Assembly (NCBI GenBank): GCA_024274915.1
Contig: JAJSAC010000062.1
Span: 1 to 40,199, forward strand
DNA: 40,199 nt
Direction: 5' to 3'
From: Thermodesulfobacteriota bacterium
Lineage (GTDB): Bacteria > Thermosulfidibacterota > Thermosulfidibacteria > Thermosulfidibacterales > B14-G1
In this document: positions 16,870-24,024 of the stretch, in pieces
How the letters are laid out: the number at the start of each line of letters is the position of its first letter
Position numbering within the stretch: position 1 is the first letter of the stretch
The notes under the pieces: generated by a model
Told to the model about the DNA's origin: nothing
The model's input: only the letters and a program-made list of their open reading frames with translations
Database searches by the model: none
Position numbers and translations under genes: made by a program

Positions 16870-17682
16870 TCAGGCTGTCTTCCCCCATTTGTTACCTTTC
16901 CCTTCTTCCAATGCTCCCATCAACTCCCCGAAAAGCCCCAAGAACCCTTTCATTCCTCCCTCGTCCAGAGCCTTCAGCAGGGCAGAACCCACGATTACGC
17001 CATCGCACCCCCGGGCCAGAAGAGCAGCTTCTAGGGCAGTGGAGATCCCAAACCCCACGCACACGGGAATATCCACAACATCCCTTATCCGAGCCACCCT
17101 CTGGGCCACCTCCTGGGCATCTTTTATGGCCGAACCCGTTACACCTTTGAGGGCCAGGTAATAGAGGAACCCCGTGGTCACCGAAGCTATGGTCTCCACC
17201 CTCTCTAACGGCGTATTGGGAGCCGCCAAGAAGACAGTATCCAAGTTTACTTCCAGGGCAACACTCACCCAATTTTGCCCCTCCTCAGGGGGGAGATCGG
17301 GTATGATCACTCCCGCCACTCCTGCCTCCCTGGCCCTTTGGGCAAAGACCTCCTCTCCCATGCGAAAGACAGGGTTGTAATAGGTCATGAGGATGATGGA
17401 AAGGGTAAGATCACCTTTTAGGAACTCCAAAGCCTTCAAGAGGGCTTCCGGAGTCACCCCTCCCTCCAGCGCCAATGAATGGGCCTTCTGAATGGTAGGA
17501 CCATCGGCCATGGGATCGGAAAAGGGTATGCCCACCTCCACAGCGGCAGCTCCCCTATCCTGGAGGGCAAGGAGAAGCTCCATGGACTCGTCCAAGGAGG
17601 GATACCCCGCCACCAAATAAGGGATAAGGGCCTTTCCTCCTCGGGCCTTCAGGCCCTCTAAAACCTCTCTAACCCCGCCCAT
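16870..17682 (-). CDS. trpA: Tryptophan synthase alpha chain
   Basis: 270 residues. The alpha-subunit motifs are present: [18 protein letters not shown] (with catalytic Glu in EVG and Asp in SDP), [11 protein letters not shown], the flexible loop segment LKGVTGS, and [15 protein letters not shown] for phosphate binding. It cleaves indoleglycerol phosphate to indole, which is channelled to TrpB. The ATG at 17682 is preferred to the adjacent GTG at 17685 because GGAGG lies at the correct distance; it overlaps trpB by 14 bp. It is the last trp gene of the operon. Confidence 0.96.
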
Positions 17683-18835
17683 CACCTTCCTCCAGGAGCC
17701 CCTTCACCAGGTTTACGTCCTTGTCCCCTCGGCCTGAAAGGGAAACCAACACCAGGGATGAGGGATCCAGATCCCCTCTATGGGCCAGGAGCCATCCTAT
17801 GGCATGAGCGCTCTCCAGGGCAGGGATGATGCCTTCTAATTGGGCCAAAGTGGCAAAACCCTCCAGGGCCTCTTGGGGAGAAACCCAGAAGTATCTGGCC
17901 CTGCCCGTCTCCCTATATTGGCTGTGCTGGGGCCCTACCCCTGGATAGTCCAGACCAGCGGCTATGGCGTCTGTGGGTATGATCTGGCCCCAGGGGTCCT
18001 GGATGAAGTGGGCCAGGAACCCATGGAGCACCCCCGGTTCGCCCCTGAGGGAAAGGGTCTCGGCTCCCTGGGCCTCCACCCCTATGAACTCCACGGGGTC
18101 ACTCTCCATGGGGTAGAAGAGCCCCAGGGCATTGGACCCCCCTCCTACACAGGCCACACAATGGGTGGGCAAACGGCCCTGGGCCTCCAGGAGTTGTTCC
18201 CTGGCCTCCCTCCCAATGACAGACTGGAAGTCCCTCACCATGGAAGGAAAGGGGTGGGGACCCACCACAGAACCTATGACGTAATGGGTGGTATCCACGT
18301 TAGCAGCCCAGTCCCGCAAGGCCTCGTTTATAGCGTCCTTAAGGGTTTGACTCCCCGACTCCACGGACACCACCCTGGCCCCCAAAAGCTCCATGCGAAA
18401 GACATTGAGAGCCTGGCGGCTCACGTCTTCGGCCCCCATGTAAACCACGCACTCCAGGCCCAAAAGAGCTGCCGCCGTGGCTGTGGCCACGCCGTGCTGG
18501 CCAGCCCCCGTCTCGGCAATGACCCTAGGCTTGCCCATCCTCCTGGCCAGAAGGCACTGCCCCAGAGTGTTGTTGATCTTGTGGGAACCCGTGTGACACA
18601 GGTCCTCCCGCTTGAGATACACTTTACAACCCACCTCTCGGCTCAAGCGCCCTGCGTAATAAAGAGGTGTAGGTCTGCCAGCGTAGGCCCTTAAGAGACC
18701 ATCCAGCTCCTCCAAAAAAGAAGCATCCTGATACAGACTCTCCCAGGCCTCCTCCAACTCCACCAAGGGAGTGTAGAGAGTTTCGGGCACGTACCGCCCA
18801 CCGAACTTCAAGTCCTTTACCATCTTCTCCCTCAT
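17669..18835 (-). CDS. trpB: Tryptophan synthase beta chain
   Basis: 388 residues from the ATG at 18835; a GTG at 18850 is possible but less likely. The PLP lysine is in [11 protein letters not shown], the glycine-rich phosphate loop is [10 protein letters not shown], and [17 protein letters not shown] lines the active site. It is a TrpB1-type subunit because it keeps the short N-terminus and is paired with trpA. It converts indole and serine to tryptophan in the alpha2beta2 complex. It lies a few bases after trpF and overlaps trpA. Confidence 0.96.
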
Positions 18836-18852
18836 CCTTTCACCCTTCACTT

Positions 18853-19497
18853 TTAACTTCTAACCCTTCGCTTTCTGCCTCCTGTTGCCCTTCCCACAAA
18901 AAGCCTCACCAGTTCATGGTCCTTTACCCCAGGCGCCTTTTCCACCCCCGAAGAGACATCCACCCCCCAGGGCTGGGCCCTTTCTATGGCCCGGACCACG
19001 TTGCCTGGGTTGAGGCCTCCTGCCAGAATGATGGGAACACCCTCCACCTTGGTCACCAGCTCCCACGGAAAGGTCCGGCCTGTGCCCCCGTATCGGCCAG
19101 GTACTTTGGTGTCCAGAAGAAAGGCAGAAACCGCTCCCCTATAGGCCTCCAGTCCTTCCAAATCCCTCTGGGAGGCCACCCTCACGGCCTTTATCACCCT
19201 GAACCCCTCCTCCCTGCACGCCCCACATTCCCGAGGCCCCTCATGGCCATGGAGCTGGATGGTATCCAAACCCACATCTTCAGCCACCCTCAGCACCTCA
19301 TCTACGGATCTGTCCACGAAGACCCCTACCCAGGAGACCAGAGGAGGAAGGGAAGCCACCATCTCCCTGGCCCTTTGGGGCTCCAGGTACCGGGGACTAA
19401 GAGGGTGAAAGACCAATCCCAGGGCGTGAGCCCCAGCCTCCATGGCTACCATGGCGTCCTCAGGTCTGGTAATTCCGCAAATTTTCACCCTAATCAC
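18853..19497 (-). CDS. trpF: Phosphoribosylanthranilate isomerase
   Basis: 214 residues with a TIM barrel. The start [12 protein letters not shown] contains the catalytic Cys. [25 protein letters not shown] (catalytic Asp) and [10 protein letters not shown], then GVDVSSGVE, form the phosphate site. It catalyses the Amadori rearrangement of phosphoribosylanthranilate. It starts at GTG, overlapping the trpC stop by 8 bp. The extreme C-terminus is basic (GGRKRRVRS), beyond the usual fold. Confidence 0.95.
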
Positions 19498-20269
19498 GGC
19501 CCATAAGCTCCCTCAATTTCGCCACCGGGTTTACCGCCCTCACCAGGGCCTCGCCTATAAGGAAGTTCTCCACCCCTGCAGCCATGAGCTTCTCGATATC
19601 AGCCCTGCTAGAAATGCCACTCTCCGCCACCACCACGAGGTCTTTAGGCACCAATGGGACCAGCTCCTCCACCACCTTCAAATCCACCTGGAAGGTGACC
19701 AAGTCTCGGCTATTGATACCCACAACCCGGGCAGGGGTCCCCAGGACCACTCCCACTTCCTCTTTGGTGTGGACCTCCACCAGGGGCTCCAGGCCCAGAT
19801 CCAGACTCTCTTTCACCAGAGACTCCAGTTCCTCAGGAGAGAGAATGGCCGCAATCAAGAGCACGGCCGAAGCCCCCCTAAGCCTGCTCTCCTCCAGTTG
19901 AACGGCATCAATGACAAAATCCTTGCGCAAAAGGGGGAGATCTACAGAGGCAGCCACCCTTTCCAGGTCTTCCAAGCTTCCTTGGAAGTGCTCATCGGTG
20001 AGGATGGAAACGGCCCTGGCCCCTCCCTCCTGGTAGAGCACGGCCTGCTGGACCGGGTCCAGGGCTGGGTTAAGGTCCCCCTTGCTTGGAGAGGCTCTCT
20101 TCACCTCGGCTATGATGCGGGGAGGCTGCTCCGAGACAAGAACCTCCAGGAAAGTGGGGTGGGAGGAAAACGCGTCCCCCATCCCATGCCTCCCACGGCC
20201 AACGCCTCTCTCCTTTAGCCTGGCCACCTCGGCCCTCTTTCTCTCCACTATCCTTTCCAGGAAACCCAC
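19490..20269 (-). CDS. trpC: Indole-3-glycerol phosphate synthase
   Basis: 259 residues. The motifs IIAEVKRASPSKG (catalytic Lys), SILTDEHFQGS, LLRKDFVID, VGINSRDL and AESGISSRAD follow the IGPS order. It closes the indole ring from CdRP. It is a separate monofunctional gene, not fused to trpF. It lies 17 bp after trpD and overlaps trpF. Confidence 0.96.
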   Translation of the reverse strand: MGFLERIVERKRAEVARLKERGVGRGRHGMGDAFSSHPTFLEVLVSEQPPRIIAEVKRASPSKGDLNPALDPVQQAVLYQEGGARAVSILTDEHFQGSLEDLERVAASVDLPLLRKDFVIDAVQLEESRLRGASAVLLIAAILSPEELESLVKESLDLGLEPLVEVHTKEEVGVVLGTPARVVGINSRDLVTFQVDLKVVEELVPLVPKDLVVVAESGISSRADIEKLMAAGVENFLIGEALVRAVNPVAKLRELMGRD

Positions 20270-20286
20270 CGCCCCTCCTTTAGTCC

Positions 20287-21306
20287 TCAGCCTCTCACCT
20301 TCTCCCCCGCCAACTCCACAGCCCTCTCCAGAACCCCCAGAGCCTTCCCTTTGTCCAAGGACTCCATGGCCAGATGGGCCCCCTCCAGGGGGGAGGACGC
20401 TTCCCCCACGGCATAAATGGCCAACCCCGCTTCCATGACCACCACGTAACGGGCAGGATCATCCTTGCCTTCTAGAAGGGTCTTGGCCCTGGCCACGGCC
20501 TCTTCCCTGCCAGACACCCTGATCTCGTCCAGGGAGACCTTCGGGAAGCCAAAAGAGCCAGGTGAAAGGGAAAACTCCTTGATACCCCGGGGAGTCACCT
20601 CCAAGACCAAGGTCTCTCCTTGGGGACTCACCTCGTCCAAGCCCTCCAAACCGTGAATCACCAGAACCCTTTTTCTACCCAGTAGCTGAGAAGCCTGGGC
20701 CATCATATAGGCCCCTCCTAAGGTAGGGGTTCCCACCACTTGGCCGTTCACCTCGGCAGGATTCACCAGGGGACCCAGCATGTTGAAGATGGTCCTCACC
20801 CCCAGCTCCCTCCTCACAGGGGCGGCATGGGCCATGGCAGGATGAAAATGGGGAGCAAAGATGAAACCAAAACCCACCTCGTCTATGGATCGGACCACCC
20901 CTTGGGGAGGCAGGTTCAAGTCCAAACCCAAACCCTCTAACACATCGGCACTACCGCACTTGCTGGAGACAGAGCGATTGCCGTGCTTGGCCACCCCCAC
21001 CCCGGCCCCTGCCCCCACCCAAGCCGCCAGGGTTGAGATATTCACCGTGGCCTGGTTGTCTCCTCCGGTGCCACAGGTATCCACCAGAGGTCTCCTTCGA
21101 GGCCTTACCTTCACCGCCCTGTCCATCATGACCCGAGCCAAGGCCGCCAGCTCCTGGGGTGTCTCGCCCCTGGCCCTCATGCCGGCAAGGAGGGCAGCCA
21201 TAACTGTAGGGCTCACTCGACCGTCCATCATGGCACCAAAGACGGCCCGGCCCTCTCCCTCCTCCAAAACCTGACCCGAAAGGACCCTGTCTAATACCTC
21301 CCTCAT
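20287..21306 (-). CDS. trpD: Anthranilate phosphoribosyltransferase
   Basis: 339 residues. The signature VDTCGTGGDNQATVNISTLAA, with KHGNRSVSSKCGSADVLE, is the PRPP/Mg site, and FIFAPHFHPAMAHAAPVRRELG with NMLGPLVNPA completes the family pattern. It transfers phosphoribose to anthranilate. It overlaps trpG by 4 bp. Confidence 0.96.
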   Translation of the reverse strand: MREVLDRVLSGQVLEEGEGRAVFGAMMDGRVSPTVMAALLAGMRARGETPQELAALARVMMDRAVKVRPRRRPLVDTCGTGGDNQATVNISTLAAWVGAGAGVGVAKHGNRSVSSKCGSADVLEGLGLDLNLPPQGVVRSIDEVGFGFIFAPHFHPAMAHAAPVRRELGVRTIFNMLGPLVNPAEVNGQVVGTPTLGGAYMMAQASQLLGRKRVLVIHGLEGLDEVSPQGETLVLEVTPRGIKEFSLSPGSFGFPKVSLDEIRVSGREEAVARAKTLLEGKDDPARYVVVMEAGLAIYAVGEASSPLEGAHLAMESLDKGKALGVLERAVELAGEKVRG

Positions 21307-21884
21307 TGCCGCACCTCCTCTGCTATCCTCAAAAAATTCCCCACAAGTTCCCTGCCCCCCTGGGTGATGTAGGCCTCGGGGTGAAACTGGACCCCAAAGA
21401 GAGGCAGAGAACGGTGAGCCACAGCCATGATCTCGCCGTCGTCGTCCCTAGCTACCACCTCCAGTTCCCGGGGCAGCCCCTCCTCCACAGCCACGAGAGA
21501 GTGGTAACGACAAGCCACAAAGGGCGAGGGAAGACCCTGAAATATCCCCTCTCCCCGGTGGAAAATAGGGGAAGTCTTGCCATGGAGGAGCCTCCTGGCT
21601 CTCCCTATGTCACCCCCCAAAGCAGCCACCAGGCACTGATGACCCAGACACACCCCCAGCACGGGTAGACGCTCCATTTCCCTCTCCAATACGGCCACAC
21701 TCTTGCCCGCCTCCCCGGGCGTACATGGCCCGGGACTCACCACCAAGGCCTGAAACCCTTCCAGGGAAGCGTCCAGTAAGGGGTGGTCGTTCCTCACCAC
21801 CTCCACACGGCCCCCCAGGGTGGCAATGAGGTGAACCAGGTTGTAAGTGAAAGAGTCGTAGTTATCTATCACCAGTACTCTCAT
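21303..21884 (-). CDS. trpG: Anthranilate synthase glutamine amidotransferase subunit
   Basis: 193 residues, a class I amidotransferase. The catalytic triad is visible as Cys in GVCLGHQ, and His and Glu in VQFHPEAY; the oxyanion segment is SPGPCTPGEAG. It supplies ammonia to TrpE and may also serve p-aminobenzoate synthesis, a common dual role that cannot be excluded. It lies 29 bp after trpE and is not fused to it. Confidence 0.95.
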   Translation of the reverse strand: MRVLVIDNYDSFTYNLVHLIATLGGRVEVVRNDHPLLDASLEGFQALVVSPGPCTPGEAGKSVAVLEREMERLPVLGVCLGHQCLVAALGGDIGRARRLLHGKTSPIFHRGEGIFQGLPSPFVACRYHSLVAVEEGLPRELEVVARDDDGEIMAVAHRSLPLFGVQFHPEAYITQGGRELVGNFLRIAEEVRQ

Positions 21885-21913: not shown

Positions 21914-23272
21914 CTAGCCCACTCCCAATGCCGCCAGCATCCCCTTGGCCTTGCTCATGGTCTCGGCGTACTCCCTCTCGGGCACCGAATCGGCCACTAT
22001 GCCAGCCCCAGCCCCCAAGTAGAAAAGGCCGTCCCTATGAAAGAGGGAGCGAATAGCTATGCAGGTATCCATGTTACCCCCGTAGTCCAGGTAACCCACA
22101 GCCCCCCCATAAAAGCCCCTCCTCACGGGCTCCAGCTCGGAGATAATCTCCATGGCCCGAACCTTGGGAGCTCCTGAAAGGGTACCGGCAGGGAAAGTAG
22201 CCCTGAGGACATCCAGGGCATCCAGATCCTCTTTCAGGACCCCCTTAACATGGGAGACTATGTGGAAGACATGGGAGTAGGCCTCCACCTGGCGAAAGTC
22301 TGTCACCTCCACGCTACCCGTCACAGCCACCCGTCCTAGGTCGTTCCTGGCCAGATCTACCAGCATGATATGCTCCGCCGCCTCCTTCTCGTCGGCCATG
22401 AGTTCCCTCACCGCCTCCTGGTCCCTGGCTGGGTCTCCCGTCCTGGGTCTAGTTCCCGCTATGGGCCGGGTTTCCATGAGCCTGCCCGTCAGGCGTACCA
22501 TAACCTCAGGAGAAGAACCCACCAGCTGGTAATCCCCCATGTCCAGGAAGAACATGTAGGGAGAAGGGTTCACGTGTCTCAAGGCCCTGTACAGGGAGAA
22601 GGGATCCTTTTGGGAAGGAATGGTGAGGATCTGGGCCAGGACCACCTGGATCACGTCCCCGGCGTGGACATACTCCACAGCCCTCTCCACGGCGGTCATG
22701 TATCCACCGGGAGAAAAGGTGGAAGAGATCTTCCCAGAAATACCCCCATCATGGCCCTCGTCCCCCACAGGACCGGAGAGCCCCTCCTCCACCTCCCGAG
22801 CCCAGGCCTCACTCCCCTCTCCCCGGGCCACGAAACGGAGGGTGCCCTTAAGGTTGTCCAGAACCACCAGTCGGTCCGTCCTGAGAAAAGCCATCTGGGG
22901 CACATCCATGAGCCCCACGACAGGCAGGGCCACGGGCTCCAGGTGGGTCACGGCGTCGTAGGAGACATGGCCCGCCAATCCCCCCTGAAAGGGGGGCAAA
23001 CCGGGCACAGGGGCTGTCCCCTCTTCCTTGAGGAACCGCCTCACCTCCTCCCAGGCATCCTGGGTGGCCTCATGAAAAGAGAAACAGGGATCTCCAAAGG
23101 CGATAAAAGAGTAACGCCCCCAGTACCGCCCCTCCTGGGCACTCTCTAGCAGCACATTGGCCCCTATAGGACGCAGCTTCATGAAGATAGAGACGGGGGT
23201 CTCCAGATCGGCCATCCTCTCCCCCACCAAGAGAGGGCCTTGCTTCTTCAACAACGCTTTCTGTACCAGCAT
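21914..23272 (-). CDS. trpE: Anthranilate synthase component I
   Basis: 452 residues. The N-terminal domain carries the tryptophan feedback site LLESAQEGRYWGRYSF. The chorismate-binding domain shows SPEVMVRL, ETRPIAGTRPRT, HIMLVDLARNDLGRV, FPAGTLSGAPKVRAMEII and GAGIVADSVPEREY. It converts chorismate and glutamine (via TrpG) to anthranilate. The start at 23272 follows AGGAGGAG directly. The leader upstream holds a Trp-rich peptide and tandem attenuator hairpins, so the gene appears to be regulated both by attenuation and by feedback inhibition. Confidence 0.96.
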   Translation of the reverse strand: MLVQKALLKKQGPLLVGERMADLETPVSIFMKLRPIGANVLLESAQEGRYWGRYSFIAFGDPCFSFHEATQDAWEEVRRFLKEEGTAPVPGLPPFQGGLAGHVSYDAVTHLEPVALPVVGLMDVPQMAFLRTDRLVVLDNLKGTLRFVARGEGSEAWAREVEEGLSGPVGDEGHDGGISGKISSTFSPGGYMTAVERAVEYVHAGDVIQVVLAQILTIPSQKDPFSLYRALRHVNPSPYMFFLDMGDYQLVGSSPEVMVRLTGRLMETRPIAGTRPRTGDPARDQEAVRELMADEKEAAEHIMLVDLARNDLGRVAVTGSVEVTDFRQVEAYSHVFHIVSHVKGVLKEDLDALDVLRATFPAGTLSGAPKVRAMEIISELEPVRRGFYGGAVGYLDYGGNMDTCIAIRSLFHRDGLFYLGAGAGIVADSVPEREYAETMSKAKGMLAALGVG

Positions 23273-23283
23273 CTCCTCCTCCT

Positions 23284-23322
23284 AAAAGAAAAAGGGCCAT
23301 GAGCTTACTCGGCCCACGGCCC
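23284..23322 (-). terminator. Second attenuator terminator (hairpin 5:6) just before trpE
   Basis: On the minus strand, GGGCCGTG (23315-23322) pairs with CATGGCCC (23294-23301), 8 bp with one G-U, followed by TTTTTCTTTT (23284-23293) and then the trpE ribosome site. Its 5' arm region, GGCCGTGGG (23313-23321), repeats the 5' arm sequence of the first terminator and is perfectly complementary to the 3' arm of that terminator. Confidence 0.75.
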
Positions 23323-23333
23323 CCAATCCGGAC

Positions 23334-23424
23334 AAAGAAAAAGGCCGTGGGTGACTTGAGGTGCCACCCACGGCCCTAGGATTCAGCCTACACTACGGGG
23401 CAGGTGGCACCCCCTGGCGCCACC
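23334..23424 (-). promoter_or_regulatory. trp attenuator: hairpins 1:2, 2:3 and terminator 3:4
   Basis: Minus-strand RNA segments: 1 = GGTGGCGCC (23416-23424), 2 = GGTGCCACC (23403-23411), 3 = GGCCGTGGGTGGCACC (23360-23375), 4 = CACCCACGGCC (23343-23353), then the T-tract TTTTTCTTT (23334-23342). 1:2 pairs over 9 bp (one G-U). 2:3 pairs perfectly over 9 bp (23403-23411 with 23360-23368). 3:4 is an 11-bp perfect terminator stem (23365-23375 with 23343-23353). Segment 1 overlaps the Trp codons and segment 2 lies before the leader stop codon, the classical logic of ribosome-mediated attenuation. Confidence 0.9.
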
Positions 23425-23470
23425 ACCACCAGCAAGAAACAACGGATATGGTCTCGACCCTTTCCATCAT
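23393..23470 (-). CDS. trpL: trp operon leader peptide with four consecutive Trp codons
   Basis: A 25-codon reading frame beginning ATG-ATG and ending TAG. It has four consecutive TGG codons at 23420-23431 (residues 14-17, ...SCWWWWRQG...). Chance is unlikely given that it sits at the promoter and overlaps attenuator segment 1. Stalling at the Trp codons when charged tRNA-Trp is scarce would free segment 2 to form the antiterminator. There is no clear ribosome site; the predicted transcription start coincides with the first ATG, so it may be translated as a leaderless mRNA, or from the second ATG (23467). Confidence 0.88.
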   Translation of the reverse strand: MMERVETISVVSCWWWWRQGVPPAP

Positions 23471-23476
23471 GCTGGG

Positions 23477-23505
23477 CCCATAGCACGGAACAGTAAAACA
23501 GTCAA
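23477..23505 (-). promoter_or_regulatory. trp operon promoter
   Basis: On the minus strand, TTGACT (23500-23505), 17-bp spacer, TATGGG (23477-23482). The predicted start falls at or near 23470, the A of the leader ATG. The -35 lies 10 bp from the end of repeat copy B. Confidence 0.6.
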
Positions 23506-23515
23506 GGGAAAAATC

Positions 23516-23768
23516 CCAGGACTTCCCCCACTTTTACTCTTATGGGTCAGGGCGGGGCGTTCCGACGGCAGAGATGATAGCTCATAGCTCATAGTTCATA
23601 GCTCGTAGTTCATGGTTCATAGCTCATAGTTGCTATCAGCCATGAGCCATCAGCTATCAGCCATGGGCAAGGGAGGGATGCCCCGCCCTTTCACTTGTTG
23701 GAAAGAAAAAATCCAGGATTCTGAACATGATGCCTTTACCAGGAAGGGAATTTTGGGGGAAGTCCTGG
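23516..23768 (-). repeat. Inverted-repeat element, copy B (opposite orientation to A and C)
   Basis: A complete copy of about 253 bp. The outer arms CCAGGACTTCCCCC (from 23516) and GGGGGAAGTCCTGG (to 23768) are inverted. The inner arms GGGCGGGGC (23550-23558) and GCCCCGCCC (23680-23688) are also inverted. The heptad core is at 23574-23665, with seven CTATGAG-type units on one side and five CATGGCT/GATAGCT-type units on the other. It has no coding potential. It lies between the divergent trp and apgM promoters. Confidence 0.88.
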
Positions 23769-23776
23769 TTTAGGGT

Positions 23777-23870
23777 CAGGAGTTCCCCGCCTTTTCGCTT
23801 CCTCGCAACGAAACTCCTTGATGCTGAATGTGGCACCATTACCAGAAGACTGATTCTGGAGGAACTCCTG
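23777..23870. repeat. Degenerate partial relative of the inverted-repeat element
   Basis: Directly follows copy B. It is bounded by CAGGAGTTCC (23777-23786) and GGAACTCCTG (23861-23870), an inverted pair. The stretch from about 23822 to 23875 aligns with the last part of copy B (TTACCAG-A-G and CTCCTGGTTTAGG against TTACCAGGAAG and GTCCTGGTTTAGG), and the heptad core is missing. The remainder of the gap to 24024 holds only a TTGACA (23974-23979), a possible -35 for apgM with no good -10. Confidence 0.6.
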
Positions 23871-24024
23871 GTTTAGGATAGAGGGGAGTACAAATTGCCC
23901 ATGATCCGGGGGGATGGCACTTTTAGTGTCTGATTTTGCAATGTGGGAGGGGGCCTGTTCGGCCTAGCGGTCCTTGACAGGGGAGGGTTTTGGTGAAGAT
24001 TGTTAAGGATGGGAGGTGAAGCAC

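Follow-up and report, generated by a model that had tools for sequence, protein, structure and literature searches.

The enterobacterial his attenuator is a six-segment chain in which the pairings A:B, C:D, and E:F, the last of them the terminator, are replaced under starvation by B:C and D:E (PMC4046918, PMC10989985). Tandem terminators together with a possible antiterminator have been described in the rimP-leader, a 5' leader element of some Gammaproteobacteria (PMC2965389), and tandem attenuators with two short ORFs in Salmonella mgtCBR (PMC3641672). Here, we analyzed the leader of the trpE gene in a window of 40,199 nucleotides (the whole stretch of DNA under study) from the 2.03-Mb draft genome of a hydrothermal-vent bacterium. 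The organism belongs to a small phylum-level group, a candidate phylum of which nine genomes were sampled; three relatives (S016_37, S016_44, and B14_G1) carry the NCBI label "Aquificota bacterium".

We interpret this leader as probably a leader-peptide (ribosome-mediated) transcription attenuator, in which a six-segment relay makes both of two terminator hairpins conditional on one ribosome position. It appears to share with the his attenuator of Salmonella and E. coli (hisL) the six-segment chain, the relay logic, and the setting of all pairings by a single ribosome position. However, hisL reads His codons and has E:F as its only terminator, whereas in the trpE leader 3:4, the counterpart of C:D, carries its own U-tract, so that two candidate terminators lie in series. 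E. coli trpL resembles the leader in its tandem Trp codons, its 1:2/2:3/3:4 logic, and its position ahead of trpE, but has four segments and one terminator, with neither 5:6 nor 4:5. The rimP-leader likewise has two tandem terminators, although it is not described as a leader-peptide element and its stems bear inverse motifs instead of a shared one. Salmonella mgtCBR also places two attenuation steps in one leader, but with two ORFs, in contrast to the one ORF and one sensor found here. The original prediction knew of no described example. This holds for the serial terminators, since no case of serial or tandem terminators with a leader peptide was found in the open-access literature searched, and does not hold for the relay chain, for which the his attenuator is the precedent (PMC4046918, PMC10989985). 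We regard three things as new: terminators placed in series on a his-type chain, the deployment of this arrangement at trp, leu, and aro operons, and its distribution, phylum-wide and sporadic beyond.

Anatomy of the trpE leader

The leader precedes a complete trpE-G-D-C-F-B-A operon on the minus strand, running from 23272 to 16870 (Table 1). It shows the sequence features of an attenuator: consecutive codons for the amino acid that the operon makes, mutually exclusive 1:2, 2:3, and 3:4 pairings, a segment 1 lying over the regulatory codons, and predicted intrinsic terminators before trpE. The helix listing gave a 1:2 helix of 9 bp, a perfect 9-bp 2:3 helix (GGTGCCACC/GGTGGCACC) within 14 bp when G-U pairs are counted, a 3:4 helix of 11 Watson-Crick pairs within 15 bp, a perfect 9-bp 4:5 helix (CCCACGGCC/GGCCGTGGG; 12 bp counting G-U), and a 5:6 helix of 13 bp. 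An additional 3:6 pairing of 12 bp is possible. Both 3:4 and 5:6 were called as terminators by the pattern scan, which applies sequence criteria only, and both have U-rich tails. The leader frame with four consecutive Trp codons, the first three pairings, the second terminator behind the first, and the perfect match of segments 4 and 5 had all been predicted, and every predicted coordinate and length proved correct.

Table 1. Features of the trp leader and operon within the window.
Feature	Position	Strand	Basis or remark
Promoter-like element TTGACT-17-TATGGG, TGC preceding the -10	23477..23505	-	sequence
Leader peptide ORF, 25 codons, MMERVETISVVSCWWWWRQGVPPAP-stop	23393..23470	-	sequence; Trp-run ORFs also in relatives L002, L003, L004, L031
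Four consecutive Trp codons (TGG x4)	23420..23431	-	sole such run in the window
Segment 1, GGTGGCGCC, overlapping the Trp codons	23416..23424	-	helix listing
Segment 2, GGGGTGCCACCTGC, partner of 1 or 3	23400..23413	-	helix listing
Segment 3, partner of 2 or 4	23358..23377	-	helix listing
Segment 4, partner of 3 (terminator 1) or 5	23341..23355	-	helix listing and terminator pattern scan
U-tract of terminator 1, TTTTTCTTT	23334..23342	-	sequence and pattern scan
Segment 5, GGGGGCCGTGGGC, partner of 4 or 6	23312..23324	-	helix listing; covariation
Segment 6, partner of 5 (terminator 2)	23292..23304	-	helix listing and pattern scan
U-tract of terminator 2, TTTTTCTTTT	23284..23293	-	sequence and pattern scan
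Shine-Dalgarno sequence of trpE, AGGAGGAGGAG	23273..23283	-	sequence
trpE, first controlled gene	21914..23272	-	TIGR00564 best match, E 1e-138
trpG, trpD, trpC, trpF, trpB, trpA, remainder of operon	16870..21884	-	trpG, D, C, F by NCBIfam
trpB	17669-18850	-	recognized from sequence
trpA	16870-17685	-	recognized from sequence

The predicted folding energy of the leader is -101.5 kcal/mol, compared with -76.9 (sd 4.8) for shuffled sequences (z -5.1). The helix lister, applied as a control to E. coli hisL, recovered B:C, C:D, D:E, and E:F. Applied to hisL, trpL, leuL, thrL, ilvL, and pheL of E. coli K-12, it gave one U-tailed terminator for each of the six leaders and none with two in series. The Rfam model of the Trp leader gave no match to the trpE leader, and over the whole window the Rfam families at gathering score returned two tRNAs only, with no leader, riboswitch, or T-box family.

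The hexamer positions, the 17-nt spacing, and the TGC of the promoter-like element are identical across four family-1 trpE leaders, and the element scored no match in a simple promoter scan. In all four (the window, 23470-23482, and the trpE leaders L002, L003, and L004) the gap between the predicted -10 and the leader ATG is only about 4-8 nt; as read from the sequence, the trp leader-peptide mRNA may be leaderless, with its ATG at or adjoining +1. Upstream of the promoter, degenerate direct repeats of the type AGCTCATAGTTCATAGCTC recur with a period of about 14-21 nt (23572-23668), and two 67-nt direct repeats of 72% identity, separated by 103 nt, occupy 23708-23877 in the gap before a divergent gene at 24016.

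Proposed switching and staged folding

When Trp is plentiful, the ribosome would reach the leader stop codon and cover segment 2, allowing 3:4 to form as terminator 1, and a polymerase that passes it would meet 5:6 as terminator 2. A shortage of Trp-tRNA would make the ribosome stall on the TGG run and cover segment 1; 2:3 would then form before segment 4 exists and terminator 1 would be skipped, and segment 4, left free, would pair with segment 5, so that terminator 2 would be skipped as well. The expected gain is that the leakiness of the two terminators is multiplied without a cost to induction.

In staged equilibrium folding, a ribosome placed on the leader stop codon left 3:4 to form at every stage, followed by 5:6. 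With the ribosome at Trp codon 1, the probability of 2:3 was 1.00 before segment 4 was made, and once segment 4 had emerged but segment 5 had not, the 3:4 pairing was preferred by 8.7 kcal/mol (calculated at 37 °C, which may not be the temperature of the organism). The predicted induced state, 2:3 together with 4:5, appeared with a probability of 0.98 once segment 5 was out, but not at full length, where equilibrium favours 3:4 plus 5:6. With the ribosome at Trp codon 4 and the same footprint, 2:3 did not survive. Because the repressed state (3:4 plus 5:6) is the most stable at equilibrium, the induced state would depend on kinetics, with 2:3 kinetically trapped. A kinetically held induced state is usual for known attenuators.

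One ribosome position had been predicted to set two exclusive states and thereby switch both terminators. The 4:5 covariation and the relatives whose first hairpins lack a U-tract, both described below, support this view, which requires correction in one respect: terminator 1 is reached before segment 5 has been made, so 4:5 has no influence there and only 2:3 matters. The folding model suggests that 4:5 acts at terminator 2 and stabilizes 2:3 against late rearrangement.

Serial chains in relatives and covariation of segments 4 and 5

Within the candidate phylum, the serial chain, its 4:5 helix unbroken over 9-14 bp, was found before trpE in five genomes, before the gene for 2-amino-3,7-dideoxy-D-threo-hept-6-ulosonate (ADTH) synthase in eight, and before leuA in five. 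The trpE layout is shared by G001, G003, G004, and the more distant G007 (leader MYAKADINLTLNMWWWQVP-stop); the same-genus genome G002 gave no trpE match. ADTH synthase carries out the archaeal-type opening step in the synthesis of aromatic amino acids, and its leader peptides in the eight genomes are rich in Trp, Phe, and Tyr codons (for example, MMKRDLYRWFWFYFGR...). The leuA leaders encode a Leu-run peptide (for example, MKKIGLLLSLLLLKARPGAFREG-stop; L052, L054, L087, L088, and L089). In each of the 17 tabulated leaders, the 4:5 helix runs for 9-14 bp without a break, and 7-9 of its pairs are G-C. A 2:3 helix of 9-18 bp is present in 20/20 leaders examined, namely these 17 and the trpE leaders of G007, G051, and G038. 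Some loci in the phylum lack the chain: a single terminator precedes paaK and the ADTH synthase gene of G005.

Several side observations concern these leaders. Aromatic runs such as RWFWFYF and SWFWFYYWW accompany the same chain at ADTH synthase in L063 (1400-1600), L064, L065, L051, L078, L081, L083, and L084. In G005 (L082/L056 and L085), one ADTH synthase leader has a single terminator, and a second copy of the gene shows no sign of a leader. The phenylacetate-CoA ligase gene paaK is preceded by a Phe-run leader (for example, MARESMICGGGFFFFGRLGP-stop) with a single-terminator attenuator in L058, in L061, and in the source genome itself (contig C71, near 8587). A Phe-run attenuator before paaK suggests that phenylacetate is salvaged into Phe, not degraded.

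The U-tracts bear on whether both hairpins terminate. In the ADTH synthase leaders of G006-G008 and the leuA leader of G006, no U-tract follows 3:4 but one follows 5:6. As in the his attenuator, only the last hairpin of these leaders appears built to terminate; since the first U-tract is missing, ribosome position would be relayed through 4:5, and on sequence grounds 3:4 can only be a relay to the second terminator. A related alternative is that the leader has a single terminating hairpin: either 3:4 would be a pure relay, like C:D of his, with 5:6 as the terminator, or 5:6 would be a stabilizing or processing stem with 3:4 as the terminator. The first U-tract is indeed poor or missing in several ADTH synthase leaders as well as in leuA of G006, and one terminator suffices for the his attenuator (PMC4046918). 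At trpE, however, both hairpins are followed by a U-rich tail, not only in the window but in the other trpE leaders as well, and we consider a single terminating hairpin there unlikely.

A second alternative is that the second hairpin is a redundant tandem duplicate of terminator 1; segment 5 would then match segment 4 simply because it copies segment 3, and the 4:5 complementarity would play no part in switching. In the leaders of trpE and of family-1 ADTH synthase, segment 5 does repeat segment 3, and GGCCGTGGG-type stems recur among the terminators of these genomes. Segments 5 and 3 have nevertheless diverged: across the 17 leaders they differ in 16 core cells, and at core positions 1-8 pairing with segment 4 is kept in 11/11 of the differences, some of them as G-U wobbles, whereas at position 9, the helix edge, it is broken in 5/5. 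In four leaders, position 8 is U in segment 4, A in segment 5, and G in segment 3, giving A-U in 4:5 and G-U in 3:4; thus, segments 4 and 5 change together where segment 3 does not. Segment 5 of five family-1 ADTH synthase leaders contains a conserved U that has a partner in 4:5 but none in 5:6. The leuA segment 5, which differs from the trp version and relies in part on U-G wobbles to keep its own pairing with segment 4, pairs poorly (5-6 bp) with segment 4 of trpE from the same genome.

Permutation of segment 5 among the 17 leaders also showed that pairing is best within the own leader. The mean 4:5 duplex energy was -22.9 for own-leader pairs and -19.3 (sd 0.8) for permuted ones, and none of 20000 permutations reached the observed value. 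Among 12 less-related leaders, 103/108 core cells pair, compared with 95.3 (sd 1.6) in shuffles (0/5000). These counts are not true probabilities, as the sequences are related and represent about 7-8 independent change events by inspection, and part of the 4:5 similarity is common to all leaders, which use related stems throughout. A redundant terminator that could not be switched would, moreover, silence the operon even under starvation. If 5:6 were a terminator that always formed immediately ahead of trpE, the operon would be blocked; we therefore infer that 5:6 must be switchable, and segment 4 is the partner that 2:3 leaves free. Simple duplication is thus quite improbable.

The original prediction had staked the 4:5 pairing on covariation in relatives. 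Every leader with this layout retains the pairing, and both two-sided and wobble-preserving changes occur. The trpE leader chain is real and conserved, and very likely functions as proposed.

A possible action of the leader on translation, also or instead, through an effect of 5:6 on trpE ribosome binding or mRNA decay, fits the distance of only 9-10 nt between the end of 5:6 and the trpE Shine-Dalgarno sequence, but that sequence lies outside the hairpin and both hairpins bear terminator-type U-tracts, which makes such a role very improbable.

The chain was further compared with the genomic background. Neighbouring hairpin pairs were collected from the 2.03-Mb genome, scanned in stretches, under loose terminator criteria, and the longest cross-helix (segment 4 with 5) was taken for each pair. 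Cross-helices with at least 8 G-C pairs occurred only at trpE, ADTH synthase, and leuA among the 2548 pairs; the loose criteria yield thousands of chance matches in coding sequence genome-wide, so only G-C-rich cross-helices are informative. The pattern CCCAYGGCC-N8..38-GGCCRTGGG occurred 1-2 times per genome in 6/9 genomes, mostly at trpE or ADTH synthase leaders, and its reversed control gave 0 matches. Exact-stem matches had first suggested a generic, genome-wide terminator stem. Several of these matches proved to be leaders of the same kind (ADTH synthase and leuA) and others single-terminator leaders (paaK); this null was narrowed accordingly and then tested by the permutations above.

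Significance and occurrence outside the phylum

Serially conditional relay-chain terminators seem, on balance, to form an undescribed class of ribosome-mediated attenuators, one that would serve as the standard control of Trp, aromatic, and Leu synthesis in one candidate phylum and occur in at least two other phylum-level lineages. If this is true, the number of chained U-tract hairpins would tune leakiness with the sensor unchanged: attenuators lengthened by added segments would let one sensing event switch more than one terminator and multiply the basal leak down. The four-segment trp and six-segment his attenuators of the textbooks would then be points on a scale sampled by this phylum, whose first U-tracts are good, weak, or absent, and the evolution of tight shut-off in leaders needing quick induction would become testable.

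Upstream regions of 87 further trpE genes, from bacteria sampled outside the phylum, were also inspected; a few Trp-run ORFs in them are probably chance ORFs. Most of the Trp leaders found there have one terminator. The serial trp chain was present in two other phylum-level lineages, represented by genomes G051 (L020) and G038 (L013). Contig ends truncate the leader ORF of G051 and the entire leader of G060, a genome of the same phylum as G051, and no second genome from the class or phylum of G038 was found. Contamination of L020 from the phylum of the window was considered and rejected, as its TrpE shares 68% identity with the TrpE of G060 and 43% with that of the window. The stems of L013 and L020 differ in sequence (AAGCCATG and GGGCCGCGGG), and the serial trp chains of G038 and G051 are therefore possibly of independent origin.
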